Origin: Planctomycetota bacterium
GTDB lineage: Bacteria > Planctomycetota > UBA1135 > GCA-002686595
Assembly: GCA_029259635.1 (NCBI GenBank)
Contig: JAJDEU010000043.1
Span: 124,001-188,000 of the forward strand
Length of the DNA stretch: 64,000 nucleotides
Reading direction: 5' to 3'
Below, one piece after another: positions 14,928 through 24,952 of this stretch. The notes below the pieces were generated by a model, which worked only from the letters and a program-made list of their open reading frames with translations, did not search any database and had not been told where the DNA came from. Both the position numbers and the translations under genes were made by a program. How positions within the stretch are numbered: position 1 is the first letter of the stretch; every line of letters begins with the position of its first letter.

Positions 14928-16796
14928 ATGATGGAATCCATGCGCGTCCTCCTCGCCTCCTCGCCCCATCGAGATACCTTTGGATATTCGATGCCTCCGC
15001 CGGGGTTGCTCAGGCTCGGCGGCGAGCTCTTGCGCCGAGGATGGGAGGTCCGATTGGAGGACTTGGCCTTTCGGCTGGCGAAGGGCGAGCTGCGCGGCGA
15101 TGACGAGATGTGTGCGGATGCGGCACGCTGGCTCCAGAGAGATGGCGCCCCCGAAGTGCTCGGGCTCTCCACCATGGGCGCCACTCTGCCGGCAGCGATT
15201 GAGATCGCACGTTTAGTGCGCGAATGCTCGCCTTCCACGTTCATCGTGCTCGGTGGTCCGGGCACGCACGGATCGGACGCCGCGCTCCTCGAGCGCTTTG
15301 ACTTCATCTCGGCCATCGTTCGCGGCGAGGGCGAAGAGACGTTGCCGGAGCTTCTCGAGCGGCTGGCGAGCGGCGACTCACTCGATGGAGTCGCGGGCCT
15401 GACCTGGAGAGCGAGCACGGGTGAGGTCGTTCGAGAGGCCGACCGACCGCCCATCGCCGACCTCGGTCAGCTCGCCGACTACGCGCGCTCGCTCCTGCCC
15501 CCGCTCTCCAGCTATAAGGCCATCACCGGGTTCGAAGACGGACTCACACCGATCGACTCCGGGCGTGGTTGCGTCTACGACTGCAGCTTCTGCACGATCG
15601 GCCGCTATTGGGGACGTCGCTCGCGCACGCTTCCGGTCGAGCGACTGATCCGAGAGGTGCTCGAAGTTCGCGAGCTCGAGAGCGCCAAGAGCGCGTACCT
15701 GTGTCACGACATTTTCGGCGCGGACCGCGAGTACGCGATCGACTTTTGCGAGTCTCTGATCGCACTCGGCGCACCGGTGCCGTGGGAGTGCCGCGCGCGC
15801 GTGGATCACATCGACGAAGAGCTGTCCGAGCGCATGGGGCGCGCGGGTTGCTATCGCGTGTTGTTCGGAATCGAGTCCGGCGATCCGGCTCTGCGAAACG
15901 CGCACGATAAACATCTCGATGCGAAGCTCGACGTGTTGGGGCGCATCGAAGCGTGCTCCAAGAACGGCGTCATTCCGATCCTCTCGATCATCTTGGGGCT
16001 GCCGGGCGAAGACGAGGACGCGCTCGCCCGTTCGCTCGACTTCGCGGCCCAGGCGGGACTCGCGAGCGGAGTTCAGCTCTCCTTCCACCTGGTCAACCCG
16101 CAACCCGGATGCGGACTGGGCGAACAGTACGGCGCCGACTCGAGTCCCCTTGAGGGCATTCCGCCCGACATGGCACTCGGCGCTGGCGAGACGAAACCCG
16201 AGCGCGAGTTGATCGCCGCTCATCCCGATCTGTTCTCGACGTGGTCGCTGCTCACCTCTCTGCCCGGCGGCGAAGTTCACCTCCGCAACCTCCACGAGAT
16301 CACAAAGCGCGTGCCCGATTTGTTGATGCGCTATCCTCGTACTTTCCTCGCGCACTGCCGCCGAACCAACGAACGCGCGCTCGACGTACTCCGCCGACTT
16401 CAATCCTTCGGTCGCTCCTTCGAGGCTTTCACGCGCATCGAACGCGACGACCTTCTCGACGGCATCATGGCCTGGGAACAATGCGTTCTGCGTGCACCGT
16501 TGCGCCGCGCCAACTCCTCCGGGCGGCTCTATCCCGATCGCGTACTCGTAAACTTCGAGCCCAGAGAGCTCACGGACTGGCTGCGCGGGAAGACCCAACA
16601 ACCTCCCGTCGAGCAGACCGTTCACCTCGCGATCCTCGCTTCCGAACGCGGCGTGCGAACGAATCGAATCAGCGCCGACGTGTGGGATGTGCTCGAACAG
16701 GCCGAAGCTCTTGAGGAGCAGAGCCCCGAGACGACAGCGGCTCCCGAGCTCTCCGAAGCACTCGCTCAACTCGTCTCGGCGGGCGTCATCGGCTAG
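14928..16796 (+). CDS. B12-binding-type radical SAM protein
   Basis: This 622-residue protein has an N-terminal Rossmann-like cobalamin-binding region (about 1-150; FIVLGGPGTHG). The radical SAM barrel follows, with Cys215, Cys219 and Cys222 in RGCVYDCSFC as the canonical CX3CX2C cluster site. The barrel has the expected SAM-binding segments (FGIESGDP, LSIILGLPGEDEDA). The C-terminal region of about 120 residues ends in a winged-helix-like segment (DVWDVLEQAEAL...AQLVSAGVIG), comparable to the end of the second radical SAM protein at 20913. Cobalamin radical SAM enzymes commonly methylate unactivated carbons; the substrate here is unknown. Starts at 14928, 14931 and 14940 are all possible. 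A sulfotransferase-like gene follows after 5 bases. Confidence 0.88.
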   Translation: MMESMRVLLASSPHRDTFGYSMPPPGLLRLGGELLRRGWEVRLEDLAFRLAKGELRGDDEMCADAARWLQRDGAPEVLGLSTMGATLPAAIEIARLVRECSPSTFIVLGGPGTHGSDAALLERFDFISAIVRGEGEETLPELLERLASGDSLDGVAGLTWRASTGEVVREADRPPIADLGQLADYARSLLPPLSSYKAITGFEDGLTPIDSGRGCVYDCSFCTIGRYWGRRSRTLPVERLIREVLEVRELESAKSAYLCHDIFGADREYAIDFCESLIALGAPVPWECRARVDHIDEELSERMGRAGCYRVLFGIESGDPALRNAHDKHLDAKLDVLGRIEACSKNGVIPILSIILGLPGEDEDALARSLDFAAQAGLASGVQLSFHLVNPQPGCGLGEQYGADSSPLEGIPPDMALGAGETKPERELIAAHPDLFSTWSLLTSLPGGEVHLRNLHEITKRVPDLLMRYPRTFLAHCRRTNERALDVLRRLQSFGRSFEAFTRIERDDLLDGIMAWEQCVLRAPLRRANSSGRLYPDRVLVNFEPRELTDWLRGKTQQPPVEQTVHLAILASERGVRTNRISADVWDVLEQAEALEEQSPETTAAPELSEALAQLVSAGVIG

Positions 16797-16801
16797 TCCT
16801 C

Positions 16802-17533
16802 ATGCACAGTACCCACCTCGCCATGTGGTCCGGACCGCGCAACATCTCGACCGCGCTCCTGCGTTCCTTCGAGAGTCGCGACGACTGCCAGGTTTGCGAC
16901 GAACCGCTCTACGCGCACTACCTGAAGTCGACCGGACTTGCCCATCCCGGCGCCGAGGAGATCATGCGCGTCCACGAAACCGACTGGCGCAAGGTCGTTG
17001 CCGAGCTGACCGCGCCGTTGCCGCCGCCCGTTTCGCTCGACTATCAGAAGCACATGGCGCACCACCTCTTACCGGAAATCGACCGCGCCTGGCTCGACCT
17101 GATCAATCACGCCTTCTTGATTCGCGATCCCGTCGAAATGCTGATCTCGCTCGACAAGGTGATTCCATCCCCGCGCGTCGAGGACACCGGCTTGCCAGAG
17201 CAACTCGAACTTTACCGCGCCCTCCGCCAAGCCGGGCAACATCCGCCGGTGATCGATTCACGCGATGTCCTGGAGAATCCGCGTGGCGTGCTCACCGCCT
17301 TGTGCCATCACCTCGCGATCGACTTCCAAGACTCGATGCTCTCGTGGAAGCCGGGGCCGCGCGACACCGACGGTTGTTGGGCCGAGCACTGGTACGCGAA
17401 TGTCTACAAGAGCACGAGCTTTGGCGCGTGGCGACCTCGCTCCGAAGCCTTGCCCGAAAAACTAGAATCCGTGCTCGCCGCCTGCCAATTGGCCTACGAC
17501 GAACTCCATGCCGACCGAATTCGAGCGAGCTGA
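16802..17533 (+). CDS. Sulfotransferase-like protein paired with a class IV aminotransferase
   Basis: This 243-residue protein has the P-loop-like PAPS-binding start LAMWSGPRNISTALLRSF (residues 7-24) and the 3'-phosphate-binding region FLIRDPVEMLIS near residue 106. These are typical of sulfotransferase-family proteins often annotated beside branched-chain aminotransferases; in some eukaryotes the two domains are fused. A conserved DEPLYAHY segment follows at about 34. It lies 5 bases after the radical SAM gene and 5 bases before the aminotransferase, so the three form one operon. True sulfo transfer is not proven for this subfamily, and the product may act on a metabolite shared with the aminotransferase. 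Confidence 0.82.
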   Translation: MHSTHLAMWSGPRNISTALLRSFESRDDCQVCDEPLYAHYLKSTGLAHPGAEEIMRVHETDWRKVVAELTAPLPPPVSLDYQKHMAHHLLPEIDRAWLDLINHAFLIRDPVEMLISLDKVIPSPRVEDTGLPEQLELYRALRQAGQHPPVIDSRDVLENPRGVLTALCHHLAIDFQDSMLSWKPGPRDTDGCWAEHWYANVYKSTSFGAWRPRSEALPEKLESVLAACQLAYDELHADRIRAS

Positions 17534-17538
17534 ACGCC

Positions 17539-18435
17539 ATGCTGCAGACCTTTGACGAGCGAAACCGGGACCTAGTCGTGAACGTGAACGGGGTGCTCTC
17601 GCACCGCGACGAGGCGCGCGTCAGTCCGTTCGATTCTTCCGTTCAAGGCGGCGACGCGGTTTGGGAGGGGCTGCGCTTGTATGACGGCAAGATCTTCAAG
17701 CTGGAAGAGCACCTGGCGCGCCTGCGTCACTCCGCGCTCGCGCTCGCCTTCGCGCACATTCCCACTCGCGAAGAGCTCGTCGATCAAATCAAGCGGACGC
17801 TCGCGGCGAACAAGATGCGCGACGGTGTACACATCCGCTTGACGCTCACGCGCGGCGAAAAGATCACGTCGGGAATGGATCCGCGGCTCAACCAGAGTGG
17901 CTCGACTTTGATTGTCTTGGCCGAGTTCAAAGCGCCGGTCTACGGAAAGACGGGGCTCACGCTCATGACGAGTTCCGTGCGCCGCTTCTCGCCCGACTCG
18001 CTCGATCCCAAGATCCACAGCGCGAACCTGATCCAGTCCATCCTCGCGAAAATCGAGGCGAATGCGGCCGGAGCAGACGACGCGCTGATGCTCGACCGAA
18101 ATGGATTTATCGCCGAGACCAACGCGACCCACGTCTTCGTCGTGGATGGCGGCGTCGTGCGCACCTCGCGGCTGGTCGCTTGTCCGGAAGGCATCACGCG
18201 CGCGACGGTGCTCGAGCTGTGTGCCGAGCACGCGATTCCCCATGAGGTGCGCGACCTCACGCAAGCCGAGGCTTATCGCGCCGACGAAATGTTCTGTACC
18301 GGCACGATGGGCGAGCTCGCGGCCGTGACGAAAGTCGACGGCCGCACGATCAACAGCGGCGAACGCGGCCCGATGACCGAGCGACTCTCGGAGCTGTTCC
18401 GAACGCTCGTCTCGTCATCGGGTACACCCGTTTGA
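17539..18435 (+). CDS. Class IV (branched-chain-type) aminotransferase
   Basis: The ATG at 17539 gives 298 residues, the normal length for fold-type IV PLP aminotransferases; the frame is open far upstream but that part overlaps the sulfotransferase gene. The start VNVNGVLSHRDEARVSPFDSSVQGGDAVWEGLR is typical, as are the PLP-lysine region KIHSANLIQSILAKIEA (the Lys near residue 156), the glutamate segment GFIAETNATHVFVV and the end motif EMFCTGTMGELAAV. The family includes branched-chain aminotransferase, D-amino-acid transaminase and aminodeoxychorismate lyase; IlvE-like is the best guess. It may supply a 2-keto acid or amino acid for the small radical SAM/sulfotransferase operon. It converges on the BlaR1-like gene with a 12-base gap. 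Confidence 0.87.
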   Translation: MLQTFDERNRDLVVNVNGVLSHRDEARVSPFDSSVQGGDAVWEGLRLYDGKIFKLEEHLARLRHSALALAFAHIPTREELVDQIKRTLAANKMRDGVHIRLTLTRGEKITSGMDPRLNQSGSTLIVLAEFKAPVYGKTGLTLMTSSVRRFSPDSLDPKIHSANLIQSILAKIEANAAGADDALMLDRNGFIAETNATHVFVVDGGVVRTSRLVACPEGITRATVLELCAEHAIPHEVRDLTQAEAYRADEMFCTGTMGELAAVTKVDGRTINSGERGPMTERLSELFRTLVSSSGTPV

Positions 18436-18447
18436 GACTAGAAACGC

Positions 18448-20382
18448 TCAGGGCATGAATTCCACGAACTCGATGTCGACGAAGCCAGCTTCGAGCAAGG
18501 CATCGAGTACCGGCACGACGTCTCCATAGACCGTCCCAGCGCCCGCTTGGATTCGCGCGCCGAGCTCGGGCGTCTTCGACTTCTCGCTGGAGAGGTATTT
18601 TGCAATTCCAGCGATGGAGTCGACGGCCAATCCTCGGCTCATCGACATCCTCGGTTCGGCGGTCTCCTCGGCCCCGCTCGTTGCGGTGTAGAGGATGCTC
18701 CGGTCTTTAAAAGTGAACCGACGACTGCCCTCCCATGAGTCTGCAGACTCGACTTCGACCATCTGTCCGGCTTTCAAGACGGAGAGGTTGATCTCGACGA
18801 AGGACGGTTCGAGTGGATACGAATCACCTGAGTCGTCTGAGGAGAGCGCCGCGGGAAAGCGCCGATCGCCCTCGAGCTCGAACGATATCTCGGAATGGCC
18901 TTGGGCCGCGATAATTTCCAGGAGTCGCAACCACTCGCGCGGCTCCGTTGACGGCGCGACGCGCAGAATGATAGGAAGCTCAGCCGTCGGCGGTTCTATC
19001 TCCAAGACTCGGAACACCTCGGCGATGTCCTCCGCATCGAGCACCCGCAGCATCACTTCGAAGGCCAACGATCGCGACCCTCCCGAGTTGACACGAACGT
19101 GCTTGGGAAAGAGGAGCGAGACACGCCCGTCCTCAAGCAGCGAGACCGTGAAGTGGAGATTCTCCGGCTCGTAGTTTTCAACCTTGACCGCGGACCCCGA
19201 AAGGAACTTTTTCCATTCGTCCGGTTTCTCATCCGACTTCTCGACCCGAAGGACCATGTCGATGTGTGCTGGTCGAGAGTTTGAGCGGAGTTCGGGGCCG
19301 GCACAGGCCATCCCTGTGGTGAATCCGGTCAAGCAGACGAGCGTGGCAACGCGCGCGAGCCGTGAAGTGGGGAGCTCCGGTCGCACCAACAAGCGTTCGA
19401 CTCGCGACACGATGGCCGAGCTCTCTGGTTCCGATGAAGCCACCATGGCTGCTCCGTTGAAGGATGGAACTCGTTCCGTCTCGACCGACCAGATGGCCAC
19501 ATGACGAAGACCTCGCGCCAGGGCAATCGCATTGCCTGACCAGAGAACGGCGCGGTCATCGCAGAGCAGTTCGGCCTCGGTCTCGATTCTGCGCGCGCTG
19601 AAACGCAGGAGCGGCAGAAAGAAGAACACGCGTGAGAGCAGAGCGAGGGCGAGCTGCCACTCGGGGTCAAAGCGCACGATATGCGCGAGTTCGTGGGCGA
19701 GAACGGCTTCTTGCTCTTCGTCGGTCATCGTCTCGACAACTTGGCGAGGCAGGTACAGTCCTCCACCCGCAATGGCGATCGGTGTAACGAGCGCTCTCGT
19801 GATTCGTAGATTCACACTTCGGCGGCAGCCCGACTTGTGGATCACGCGCTCGAGCAATCGCTGCGTCGAAGCTTCCGGTTGATCGCTTTCCGTCCTCAAC
19901 TCTTTCAGACAACGATGTCTTGAGAGAAGCAGCTGGACCACGCACAGAACGGCACCCAACGCCCAGCCCGCGACGAGAATCGAGACAAAGGGAACTGCGC
20001 TTTCAGAGGACCCGCTCGCAGCGTCACTGGTTTCCGCCGCTTGTACGGGAACCCGCGAAGCGCCGGCACCGACGGCCTTCGGCGCAATCTCTCCCGCCGC
20101 GATCATCATCTCGCCGCTCTGCACTTCGGAAGCACTCGCAGGAGAAGAGCTCTTCTCGACTTTCCAGATCAGGGGTCGCTGACCGGCACCCCACTCACCG
20201 ATCATGCCCGCCGAGAACAGCGCCCCCACCACGGAAGCTTTCCACGTCCACTCGCGCAGCTGGGGAGTTTTAAGCAGGCGTACCAACGACCAAGCGAGCA
20301 CGAACCACATCACCCCGTGAACGGCATAGGTCGTCAGCCAGGTTGCAATGTCCACGATCCAATCCGGTTCATGAGTACTCAT
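18448..20382 (-). CDS. BlaR1/MecR1-like M56 metallopeptidase with ExbD-like C-terminal segment
   Basis: This 644-residue membrane protein has N-terminal helices at about 20-60 and 131-154. A cytoplasmic zinc-peptidase domain follows, carrying HELAH at 230-234 and the downstream acidic segment ETEAELLCDDRA near 267. This is the BlaR1/MecR1 layout, in which a signal triggers proteolysis of the BlaI repressor. Beyond the helix near 345 there is no penicillin-binding sensor. Instead a region of about 290 residues ends in GARIQAGAGTVYGDVVPVLD and AGFVDIEFVEF, resembling the periplasmic ExbD/TolR fold; a degenerate copy (IILRVAPSTEPREWLRLLE) sits near 460. The start overlaps the repressor stop by 4 bases. 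The sensed signal is probably not a beta-lactam. Confidence 0.85.
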   Translation of the reverse strand: MSTHEPDWIVDIATWLTTYAVHGVMWFVLAWSLVRLLKTPQLREWTWKASVVGALFSAGMIGEWGAGQRPLIWKVEKSSSPASASEVQSGEMMIAAGEIAPKAVGAGASRVPVQAAETSDAASGSSESAVPFVSILVAGWALGAVLCVVQLLLSRHRCLKELRTESDQPEASTQRLLERVIHKSGCRRSVNLRITRALVTPIAIAGGGLYLPRQVVETMTDEEQEAVLAHELAHIVRFDPEWQLALALLSRVFFFLPLLRFSARRIETEAELLCDDRAVLWSGNAIALARGLRHVAIWSVETERVPSFNGAAMVASSEPESSAIVSRVERLLVRPELPTSRLARVATLVCLTGFTTGMACAGPELRSNSRPAHIDMVLRVEKSDEKPDEWKKFLSGSAVKVENYEPENLHFTVSLLEDGRVSLLFPKHVRVNSGGSRSLAFEVMLRVLDAEDIAEVFRVLEIEPPTAELPIILRVAPSTEPREWLRLLEIIAAQGHSEISFELEGDRRFPAALSSDDSGDSYPLEPSFVEINLSVLKAGQMVEVESADSWEGSRRFTFKDRSILYTATSGAEETAEPRMSMSRGLAVDSIAGIAKYLSSEKSKTPELGARIQAGAGTVYGDVVPVLDALLEAGFVDIEFVEFMP

Positions 20383-20768
20383 GAGCTTTTTCCTTCCCCG
20401 GACTCGTGGGCGGCGATGATGTCGCGAATGCGATCGAGATCACCGGGATTGAGCTCGTGTTCCTTCAAGAGGTGACTGACGAGGCGCGGAACGTCGCCGC
20501 CGAACAGGCGCTCGGAAAACTCCGCCACCATCGAGCGCGTGGCGCGCTCCTCTTCGACGAGTGCGCGGAAAATGAATTGCCGACCTTCGGCGCGATGATC
20601 GACGAGGCCGCGTTCTTCGAGCCGGCGCAGGAGAGTCGCGACCGTTGTCGGGACGAGTTGGTGGCTGGCCACGAGGTCCGCGTGGACTTCGGTAACGCTG
20701 GCTTCTTTTCGCTTCCAGAGGGAGCGCATCACGGAGAGCTGGAGCGGAGTGAGATCGGTCTTGGCCAT
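20379..20768 (-). CDS. BlaI/MecI-family winged-helix repressor
   Basis: This 129-residue protein matches the family length. Its N-terminal winged helix reads LTPLQLSVMRSLWKRKEASVTEV, with recognition region LVPTTVATLLRRLEERGLVDH. The C-terminal helical dimerisation region (about 78-125) contains the usual cleavable segment before LFGGD. It is a DNA-binding repressor that would be destroyed by the M56 peptidase encoded immediately downstream with an ATGA overlap. Two TACA-N2-TGTA dyads 16-41 bases upstream of its own start are the likely operators, implying autoregulation of the pair. The same region could also affect the divergent radical SAM gene at 20913. Confidence 0.93.
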   Translation of the reverse strand: MAKTDLTPLQLSVMRSLWKRKEASVTEVHADLVASHQLVPTTVATLLRRLEERGLVDHRAEGRQFIFRALVEEERATRSMVAEFSERLFGGDVPRLVSHLLKEHELNPGDLDRIRDIIAAHESGEGKSS

Positions 20769-20912: not shown

Positions 20913-23147
20913 ATGATTCAGAAGAGCGCCGCGTTCCCGATCAGCTTGATCTTCCCGCCCCAGGGCCACTTCACTCAGCCCTACTTGGCACTCCCCTGCC
21001 TCAAGGCCTGGCTCGAGCAGCACGGCTTCGGCGACGTCGCACTCGTGGATGCGAGCATCGAGGCCTACGACCACTTTTTATCGCCGGATGAACTCAGCTG
21101 GGCGGCCGAACGCGTAGCTGAAAAGTTGCCTCTCGATAAATTTGGCGAGAGCGGCGAGCTTCGGTTCGACGAACTCGAAGGCTATCGCGCGGCAGCCGAG
21201 AGCGCCGTGTCGGCATCCGCACTGATCGCGGGGATCGACGAAGCGAAACGCATCGTGCGAGGCGAAGACTTTTACGAGCCCGACGCCTACCTGCCCGCGA
21301 TGCGCTCGATCTATCACGGCCTGCGACTTTTTTCTGCGGCGCACTTTCCCAGCCAGCTCACGCCGCACAACTTCACGATGCGGCTCGCGAACGATCGCTC
21401 CGAAGAGGTTTTGGCCGCGACACTGAACGAGGACGAGAATCCGTTCATTCGTTTCTTCCGCGAGCGCGTGCTGCCCGGCCTCATCGAACGCAAGCCGCGC
21501 CTCGTCGGCCTGAGCGTCATCTATGGCAGCCAACTGATTCCCGCGCTCACGCTCGGTCGCATGATCAAAGCGGCGCTGCCCGATTGTCACATCACAGCGG
21601 GCGGCGGATTCCTCGCGTACATCGGCAAGAAACTCTTGGCCGCGCCCGGCGTGGACGCGTGCCTCGACTCGCTCATCTTTCACGAAGGCGAAGCGCCGAT
21701 GCTCGCGCTCGCGAACGCACTTCAAGCTGGCGAGTCCCTGTCGACAATCGGCTCACTCGACTGGTACGACCGCTCGAGCGGAAGCGCGGTGCGCGTCGAG
21801 AACCCGCAGGGTCATCCGATTCGACTGGAAGATGCGCCGACGCCGAGCTTCGACGGCCTGCCCTTCGAGAAGTACTTTTCGCCCGAGGTCGTGATCCCCT
21901 ACGACATCAACCGCGGGTGTTATTACGGAGAATGCGCGTTTTGCACGCTGCCGACCGTCATCGGCCCGGGCTATCGAACGCGCTCCGCGAAGAAGATCGT
22001 CGACCACGTGATGGAGCTCTCGGAGAAGCTCGGGACTCGGAATGTCAACTTCATCACCGACTGCATGCCGCCCGGCATGATCGCGGATTTGCCGAATGAA
22101 CTGATCGAGCGCAAAGCCAACTTGCGTTGGTGGTGTGACGCGCGCGTCGAGCCGAAGGCCTATACGCCCGAGGGTGCGCGCAACTTGCATGCGGCCGGGT
22201 GTCGGAAGCTCTTGTTCGGGTTCGAGACCGCTACGCCGCGACTCTTGAAGTTGATGAAGAAGGGACAGAGCGCGCGGGCGACGCTCGACGTCGCGCGCAA
22301 CTGCACCGACGCGGGTATCAGTGTCACCTTCTACGCGATGGTCGGCTTTCCGTCGGAGACTCGCGAAGAGGCGCGCGCCACGCTCGACTTCATTCGAAGC
22401 AACTCGGACGTCGTGCGCGAAGTTTCGTTGCAGACCTTTCACATCGACGAAGTCGCGCAGACCTATAAGGACGCCGAGGCCTTTGGCATCGAGATTCTCG
22501 ACGACGAGCATGCCGACCTGCAGCTCTACCACGACTACGTCTCCGAATCGGGCATGACGCAGACCGAAGCGGCCGAGATGTTCGAGGAGATGATGGCGGC
22601 GTTCCGGGAACAGCTCCCGCTCTTCTCCGGCGACAACATCTATTACTTCATGAACAAGAGCCACTACTTCCTGCACCTGGCGCGCGACGTCTCGCCGGAC
22701 GAGTTCGTCGAGCTGTGCAGAAGGCGCACCGAACGGCGTTCGACCGAGCAAGCGGTCGAGCGCGGGCTCGCACCCGCGACCGACTTGGGGCTGACGACTC
22801 TGCCCTTCCGCTATACCGACGTTGTTCGCGCGCTCGCGCATCCGCTGGCTCGCGCCGTGCGCCCCGACTTCCTCACCGGTCGCTACGTCGAAGACTTGAT
22901 TCCGCGCGCGGGCGCCGAGATCGGTTCCATTCGCCCCGCAGAAAGCGCCTTGGCCTACTCCGCAAACGGTGCGGAGTACACCGAGCTCTCCATCGACGGG
23001 AAGCAGGTGCTCGACGCGCTCTCCGAGGTAGGATCTCTCGACCTTCTGCTCGACTCACTCGCGGGCGCGGACGAACGCGGCCGCGCCGACCTCAACCGCT
23101 TTGCCGCGCGCCTCGAACGAGCGGGCGTCCTCAGCCGCACGCACTGA
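20913..23147 (+). CDS. B12-binding-type radical SAM protein, possible RiPP maturase
   Basis: This 744-residue protein has an N-terminal cobalamin-binding-like region (about 150-250, with GLSVIYGSQLIPALTLG and ITAGGGFLAYIG). Its radical SAM cluster site is NRGCYYGECAFC, Cys336, Cys341 and Cys344; the CX4CX2C spacing is seen in B12 radical SAM groups with RGCYWGxC-type motifs. SAM-binding features include LLFGFETATPRLL and YAMVGFPSETREEA. The last 80 or so residues (ELSIDGKQVLDALSEVG...LERAGVLSR) look like a PqqD-like winged-helix peptide-recognition element. A 52-codon gene follows 40 bases downstream. This layout, a radical SAM with a possible recognition domain plus a small peptide, is what a RiPP pathway looks like. 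The reaction is unknown. Confidence 0.85.
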   Translation: MIQKSAAFPISLIFPPQGHFTQPYLALPCLKAWLEQHGFGDVALVDASIEAYDHFLSPDELSWAAERVAEKLPLDKFGESGELRFDELEGYRAAAESAVSASALIAGIDEAKRIVRGEDFYEPDAYLPAMRSIYHGLRLFSAAHFPSQLTPHNFTMRLANDRSEEVLAATLNEDENPFIRFFRERVLPGLIERKPRLVGLSVIYGSQLIPALTLGRMIKAALPDCHITAGGGFLAYIGKKLLAAPGVDACLDSLIFHEGEAPMLALANALQAGESLSTIGSLDWYDRSSGSAVRVENPQGHPIRLEDAPTPSFDGLPFEKYFSPEVVIPYDINRGCYYGECAFCTLPTVIGPGYRTRSAKKIVDHVMELSEKLGTRNVNFITDCMPPGMIADLPNELIERKANLRWWCDARVEPKAYTPEGARNLHAAGCRKLLFGFETATPRLLKLMKKGQSARATLDVARNCTDAGISVTFYAMVGFPSETREEARATLDFIRSNSDVVREVSLQTFHIDEVAQTYKDAEAFGIEILDDEHADLQLYHDYVSESGMTQTEAAEMFEEMMAAFREQLPLFSGDNIYYFMNKSHYFLHLARDVSPDEFVELCRRRTERRSTEQAVERGLAPATDLGLTTLPFRYTDVVRALAHPLARAVRPDFLTGRYVEDLIPRAGAEIGSIRPAESALAYSANGAEYTELSIDGKQVLDALSEVGSLDLLLDSLAGADERGRADLNRFAARLERAGVLSRTH

Positions 23148-23187
23148 CCCTTTCTCGTCCGCCCGATCTCCCTCCCCCGAGCTCGCC

Positions 23188-23346
23188 ATGTCCAACAAGC
23201 AAGACCAAGACGCACCGACCACATCCAAGCCCGCCGAAAAGCTCGAGACGCTCGCCGAGAAGCTGAAAGCCGGCAAGCTCGATCTCAAAGTCGAAGAAGT
23301 CGAAGAGCGCATCAGCCCCAGCGAAACCAACGTCTTCGACAAGTAG
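23188..23346 (+). CDS. 52-residue peptide, candidate RiPP precursor
   Basis: This small protein begins MSNKQDQDAPTTSKPAEKLE and ends ERISPSETNVFDK. Residues 16-43 are a Lys/Glu-rich amphipathic helix, a plausible leader. The last 11 or so residues are uncharged to polar and could be a core with Ser, Thr, Asn and Phe as modification sites. There is no cysteine. It sits between the radical SAM gene (40-base gap) and a lipoprotein gene (9-base gap), so it is probably co-transcribed. No strong ribosome-binding site is visible, and the frame is open upstream to 23101. I know no named family for it. It could instead be a small structural or regulatory protein. Confidence 0.55.
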   Translation: MSNKQDQDAPTTSKPAEKLETLAEKLKAGKLDLKVEEVEERISPSETNVFDK

Positions 23347-23971: not shown

Positions 23972-24952
23972 ATGCGAAACCCGATTGATGTCCTCATCGC
24001 GCTGGCCGCAGTCCTCATCCTCGCCGCCACAGGCGTCGGCCGGGAGGACGAGCCCGCCTCCCTTCCCCTCGCGACCGTCGAGGCGGTCTCCTGCACCGAG
24101 TGCCACCGCGCCATCGCTCTGGAGTGGGCCGATTCCCTCCACGCCCGAGCCTGGGTCGACCCGATCTACCAGAAGGCCGTGAAGAAGAAGCGCCGGCCCT
24201 CCAGCTGCTACGGCTGCCACATTCCCCTTCCGCTTCACTCCGGCGACCTGGCCAAGAAGCCCAAACCCCGCTCAGCGGAGAGCGAGCCCCTGGAACACGG
24301 GATCAGCTGCCGGAGCTGCCATGAGGGTCCGGATGGCGAGATCCTGGGACCCTTTGGGGCCGAAACCGAAGCCCACCGATCCGTCCAATCGCCCTCCTTC
24401 GTGGGTGCCGGCCGAGATCAGCTCTGCGCCAGTTGCCACCGGACGAATATCGGCCCCGTCATAGGGGTTGCCAAGGACTTCGAGAGCACCAGACAAGCCG
24501 ATCGGGACCGCAGTTGCGTGGGTTGTCACATGAGCTTCGAGATACGAGAACTCGCCGAATCGGATCCCAATGGACCCAAAATCGAGCGAAAAGGGCGCAA
24601 TCACCGCATTAATGGCCCAAGCGACCCGGAGTTCCTGGAGCGGGCCTTCCAGCTCTCGCTCGAAGCCGAGGAGGGTGCTCTCCGGCTCCGCATTGCCAAC
24701 GGTGCCGGGCACCGAGTTCCCGGTCTCATCGGTCGCCGATTCGAGCTGACCGGTCGTCTCCTCGACGAAGAAGGCCAAGAGCTCGCCTCCCAGACGGCGA
24801 CCTTCGATACCTTCTCCTATCTCGATGTCACCAAGCCGTTCGAGTGGGTATTCAAGGGCACCGGAGCAGTCCTCACCGTCACCGGCCTCCACTTCCCCAC
24901 CGAAAAGTCCCGTCCGATACCCTTTCTTAATGAGCGATTCGAGATCGAGTAG
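23972..24952 (+). CDS. Five-heme c-type cytochrome (cytochrome c554-like)
   Basis: This 326-residue protein has an N-terminal hydrophobic signal (residues 5-22). Five CxxCH heme sites are visible at 41-45 (CTECH), 79-83 (CYGCH), 113-117 (CRSCH), 152-156 (CASCH) and 182-186 (CVGCH). The spacing, the CYGCHIPLP segment and the EHGISCRSCHEGP segment resemble the cytochrome c554/multiheme tetra- to pentaheme electron carriers. After the heme region, residues 200-326 form a beta-rich domain without cysteines. It should act outside the cytoplasm as an electron carrier or oxidoreductase. It is 4 bases upstream of a VWA-domain gene. No nitrite reductase Lys-ligand motif (CxxCK) is visible. Confidence 0.85.
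   Translation: MRNPIDVLIALAAVLILAATGVGREDEPASLPLATVEAVSCTECHRAIALEWADSLHARAWVDPIYQKAVKKKRRPSSCYGCHIPLPLHSGDLAKKPKPRSAESEPLEHGISCRSCHEGPDGEILGPFGAETEAHRSVQSPSFVGAGRDQLCASCHRTNIGPVIGVAKDFESTRQADRDRSCVGCHMSFEIRELAESDPNGPKIERKGRNHRINGPSDPEFLERAFQLSLEAEEGALRLRIANGAGHRVPGLIGRRFELTGRLLDEEGQELASQTATFDTFSYLDVTKPFEWVFKGTGAVLTVTGLHFPTEKSRPIPFLNERFEIE

Follow-up and report, generated by a model that had tools for sequence, protein, structure and literature searches.

A B12-type radical SAM enzyme and its adjoining D-K tail peptide in Planctomycetota: a proposed RiPP-type system

Mycofactocin (MftA/MftB/MftC) and PQQ (PqqA/PqqD/PqqE) are cofactor-type RiPPs that combine an invariant precursor core, an RRE domain and a radical SAM enzyme; invariant cores are unusual for RiPPs. 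In the borosins the substrate tail is fused to the modifying N-methyltransferase, and QhpC is a subunit in quinohaemoprotein amine dehydrogenase. ApyD, a B12-rSAM with an RRE, forms beta-methyltyrosine (PMC10635010). The locus described here lies in the window, by which we mean the whole stretch of 64,000 nucleotides that was analysed, and consists of a B12-type radical SAM gene (rSAM-A) followed by a gene for a small peptide. Its layout is of a known kind; judged by sequence comparison, the enzyme/peptide family is undescribed, and the initial annotation, which could place it in no known class, was right to the extent that neither an NCBIfam precursor model nor an enzyme model is matched at cut-off. 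A literature search for the tail strings, which did not cover all literature, found no paper.

The enzyme and its C-terminal domain

20913-23147, + strand: rSAM-A, B12-type radical SAM enzyme, 744 aa, CX4CX2C (Pfam Radical_SAM 70.9 bits)
21462-21710, + strand: cobalamin-binding-like domain, residues 184-266 (PF02310 31.0 bits, cut-off 32.1; B12 radical SAM enzyme fold)
21918-21944, + strand: [4Fe-4S] site C336-Y-Y-G-E-C341-A-F-C344, invariant in 56 homologues
22938-23144, + strand: PqqD/RRE-like C-terminal domain of rSAM-A, residues 676-744 (AlphaFold; PqqD matches in homologues)

The enzyme had been annotated as a B12-type radical SAM protein with a CX4CX2C site, and this was confirmed by the PF04055 match together with the invariance of C336, C341 and C344 across the 56 homologues. 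The criterion of a cobalamin-binding domain is met by the fold of rSAM-A, which is nearest to TsrM and OxsB, with PF02310 just under its cut-off. The AlphaFold model (pLDDT 93) resembles TsrM, OxsB, AprD4 and MgmA; only enzyme rows were used in the modelling alignment because a joint alignment of peptide and enzyme misplaced the peptides. The best NCBIfam model for rSAM-A was TIGR03975 (rSAM_ocin_1), at 118 bits and below its cut-off of 281.85.

A recognition-domain-like fold had also been proposed for the C-terminus, and it is present in the AlphaFold model as two strands (residues 678-683 and 688-692) and three helices (694-706, 709-715 and 721-736), with a block pLDDT of 80-97. The lack of such a fold, which the initial annotation had named as refuting, was not what the model showed. 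Pfam PqqD gave no match by sequence to this part of the window enzyme, and scored above its gathering cut-off in two homologues (L160 and L166) of the ten sequences tried. The strict order for an RRE is bbb-aaa (PMC12710340); the first strand of the window domain is modelled as a bridge only, so that this order is not fully met in the window copy.

The peptide and its pairing with rSAM-A

23188-23346, + strand: 52-aa peptide, proposed precursor, with 72 distinct homologues adjoining rSAM-A
23278-23292, + strand: proposed recognition strand LDLKV (-22 to -18), hydrophobic at -20/-18 counted gapless from the C-terminus; contact with the RRE inferred, not modelled
23323-23343, + strand: proposed core ETNVFDK-COOH, invariant in 42 peptides of tail type T1 except for V/I at -4

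The peptide gene comprises 52 codons and a TAG stop and starts 40 bp past the rSAM-A stop, just as first annotated, and the absence of cysteine noted for the window peptide extends to every peptide of the family. The N-terminal segment had been taken for a charged leader-like helix, a description that has to be corrected: it is a K/E/P/A-rich, low-complexity segment, variable in sequence and length (total 52-78 aa), and conservation lies in the last ~22 residues. Across the 42 T1 peptides R-12, P-9, E-7, T-6, N-5, F-3, D-2 and K-1 are invariant, and the last 20 codons carry 4899 synonymous as against 2966 non-synonymous codon differences. Matches of the peptide to Amphi-Trp were weak and under cut-off, and this identity was rejected.

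Eighty rSAM-A loci were found in the genome collection, with labels giving Planctomycetota or, for some, no phylum. Among the 78 non-redundant loci with sufficient downstream DNA, the peptide lies directly downstream of rSAM-A in 74, mostly within ~350 bp, and the ends of the two genes commonly overlap by 4-8 bp. The four exceptions are a peptide on a different contig from rSAM-A (G306), one ~4 kb downstream (G124), one a few kb downstream, beyond the locus stretch and located by genome search (G190), and one whose tail is interrupted by a scaffold N-gap (L115). All 78 informative loci are therefore accounted for with a peptide, the L115 copy being cut by the gap. A search for SPSETNVFDK-like tails beside homologous radical SAM genes, which the initial annotation had put forward as a check, thus found peptide and rSAM-A together in every informative case, and the outcome named there as a refutation, a peptide lacking the radical SAM gene in most genomes, was not seen; three genomes of the family (G033, G021 and G027) have neither. 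The peptide was found in 24 of 61 genomes searched, the window genome included, all of them of the same family except for one marginal match (E 0.09).

No chance peptide neighbour was found beside ~590 other genes at the fetched loci, where only the true peptide appeared at rearranged loci; this rate was measured on the fetched loci only and not on whole genomes. The peptide was also absent from the more distant rSAM-A homologues sampled; in L193, which scored best among those examined, the C-terminal domain is missing too. The RiPP criterion of a short precursor gene consistently adjoining a modifying enzyme is met. The original observation holds and is larger than first described, as the system spans several planctomycete families; it is carried by the complete genomes of Planctomycetes bacteria Pla86 and Pla163, which makes it testable.

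Tail types, register and the second radical SAM gene

Five tail types were distinguished among 73 tails:

T1 tail (42 peptides): ...LDLTVExVEERISPSETN[VI]FDK
T2 tail: ...DLHIEEVEERHIPKDRNIFDK
T3 tail: ...YVFKIAPADPKNSFDFEDVADK
T4 tail: ...FRFKRLDGRDPMKYEDVADK
T5 tail: ...LDLEIDDVQTRLPYGSEDIADK

D-K at -2/-1 forms the exact C-terminus in all 73 tails and all five types, and positions -20 and -18, in a gapless count from the C-terminus, are hydrophobic in nearly all of them; this register and the universal D-K are kept across tails that are otherwise dissimilar. Residue -3 is Phe in T1 and T2 and Ala in T3-T5. The types map on the rSAM-A clades with four changes for five types, which is the minimum. 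T5 loci encode one more small peptide, which shares the LD-type strand and has a conserved tail of its own, LKEGFTGQE[RM] (L163:8314-8514, L199:8104-8283 and L210:6505-6654).

A natural fusion places rSAM-A and the peptide tail in one frame, without the variable N-terminal segment (L157:6001-8298, identical to L065:1044-3341), and was seen in one genome. In a single, uninformative attempt AlphaFold left the tail of this protein unplaced (pLDDT ~33), with no docking to the RRE-like domain. An apparent fusion in G002/L063 was not counted, since it lies at a contig end and two contigs disagree, and in L004, L017 and L018 the long in-frame ORFs that run across the peptide are shadows due to high GC and no fusions.

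14928-16796, + strand: rSAM-B, second B12 radical SAM enzyme, 622 aa, CX3CX2C, adjoining rSAM-A in most T1/T2 loci

The window copy of rSAM-B is located 4.1 kb upstream of rSAM-A; between them (16802-20768) are a sulfotransferase gene, a gene resembling branched-chain aminotransferases and a BlaI/BlaR-like pair. It matches PF02310 above cut-off (45.2 bits); its best NCBIfam model is ApyD (NF050148) at 190.5 bits, below the cut-off of 750, and Pfam found on rSAM-B C-termini only a weak PqqD match, in the window copy (14.5 bits). In a search at E 1e-40 rSAM-B was confined to T1/T2 genomes, those with Phe at -3, and was not found at that threshold in T3-T5 genomes; the G124 copy is present though below it. 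rSAM-B belongs to the system where -3 is Phe, though the link with Phe could go back to no more than one event in evolution. The system had been drawn as rSAM-A and the peptide alone; both remain, and rSAM-B, outside the stretch then marked, is now included.

Proposed mechanism, alternatives and described systems

We consider it fairly probable that these genes form an RRE-dependent radical SAM RiPP-type system, in which rSAM-A modifies the C-terminal core and rSAM-B adds a step where -3 is Phe. What has been observed is that the genes are paired, that the tails are conserved, keep their register and match the rSAM-A clades, that the enzyme C-terminus has an RRE-like fold, and that one fusion exists. 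The ribosome would make the peptide, and the PqqD/RRE-like domain that ends rSAM-A would bind the peptide strand with alternating hydrophobic residues that lies 18-22 residues before the C-terminus, a binding that is inferred and a contact that has not been shown. The fixed strand-core distance would then put the core [N/D]-[V/I/T]-[F/A]-D-K into the active site, the modification and its site likewise being inferred. The inferred chemistry is cobalamin-dependent radical modification by rSAM-A, most likely C-methylation, and in T1/T2 rSAM-B may make a further modification, plausibly of the Phe. The radical SAM RiPP reading of the initial annotation is thus supported by pairing and fold, with modification and peptide-RRE contact undemonstrated; the typical layout it described stands for the enzyme/peptide pair and not for the conservation, which is inverted (invariant C-terminal core, variable N-terminus), nor for the number of enzymes, as a second radical SAM protein takes part.

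The function is also inferred. The invariant C-terminal core suggests a fixed cofactor, a carrier or a part or subunit of a small protein rather than a diversifying natural product or antibiotic, which is probable because the core is unchanged across many genera. Only tentatively do we propose that Planctomycetota process the D-K tail peptides into a new ribosomal cofactor or carrier, that one or two B12 radical SAM enzymes build it on the invariant C-terminal core, and that it is used intracellularly, not as a secreted weapon. No protease or exporter was found linked to the rSAM-A/peptide loci.

23972-24952, + strand: c554-like multihaem cytochrome, possible functional neighbour by a weak link (Pfam Cytochrome_C554)

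The neighbouring genes bear on whether the peptide, once modified, might instead be kept at full length, as a small protein that acts either as a carrier or as a redox enzyme's catalytic subunit, which we think unlikely and which rests on analogy with QhpC. The invariant core and C-terminus would suit such a subunit, and the c554-like cytochrome gene comes after the peptide in about half of the T1 loci, overlaps the peptide gene in L059:9903-11287, where both rSAM genes are on another contig, and has a c554-type multihaem counterpart at some T4 loci, among several ASPIC/UnbV FG-GAP genes around rSAM-A. However, T3 loci hold an ASPIC/UnbV FG-GAP gene directly upstream of rSAM-A (e.g., L159:4199-5998) instead of a cytochrome, the cytochrome at T1 loci may be there through general synteny with nuo genes, and the peptide has no apparent signal peptide and, unlike QhpC, lacks Cys and has almost no Trp. 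Other neighbours are sensor and response-regulator genes, which usually precede the peptide at T2 loci, and a NifX-like gene in two of three T5 lineages, which immediately precedes rSAM-A and encodes a protein with a NifX/NafY-like cofactor-binding domain (L163:5609-5992).

Less credible still is a role of the peptide as activator or regulatory tail without being modified, with a lipid or small molecule as the substrate of rSAM-A. Relatives among the B12 radical SAM enzymes do include small-molecule and lipid enzymes (OxsB, AprD4, HpnJ and the ladderane family), and the tail can occur fused to rSAM-A, but a C-terminal RRE-like domain with a separate Cys-free peptide carrying strand and core is the layout of a RiPP, tail residues are conserved beyond the needs of a docking motif, and at T5 loci a single enzyme is paired with two different peptides. 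A chance origin of the small ORF, as one of the many spurious frames that high-GC DNA yields, is refuted by protein-level conservation amid many synonymous changes, and no chance match adjoins the ~590 other genes.

The RiPP-type system that we favor resembles several described ones. TIGR03975, the RiPP maturation radical SAM C-methyltransferase, is likewise B12-type and RiPP-associated and is the top NCBIfam match of rSAM-A, but rSAM-A reaches only 118 bits where 282 are required, and for the peptide none of the NCBIfam precursor families reaches its cut-off. ApyD of the aminopyruvatide pathway (NF050148; PMC10635010) is similar in being an RRE-containing B12-rSAM whose ribosomal peptide substrate is modified close to its conserved C-terminus, and is the top match of rSAM-B, but at 190 against 750 bits; the Apy pathway has a P450, an MNIO and a methyltransferase, none of which is among the conserved genes of the rSAM-A loci. 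The borosins share the joining of tail and enzyme seen in L157, although fusion is exceptional here and a radical SAM enzyme replaces the N-methyltransferase. This work adds a radical SAM peptide system family that occurs in several families of planctomycetes and is unusual in its rules: the invariant core stands at the very C-terminus, its distance from the strand is measured, tails are specific to lineages, and enzyme and substrate are fused in a natural case. Whereas rSAM-A differs from the enzymes of mycofactocin and PQQ in being B12-type, and its loci in a core (N-V-F-D-K or D-V-A-D-K) without Tyr and in having no linked protease or dehydrogenase, the system shares with both an invariant core, an RRE(-like) domain and a radical SAM enzyme, and if its product is a cofactor it would join them on the very short list of those made ribosomally.
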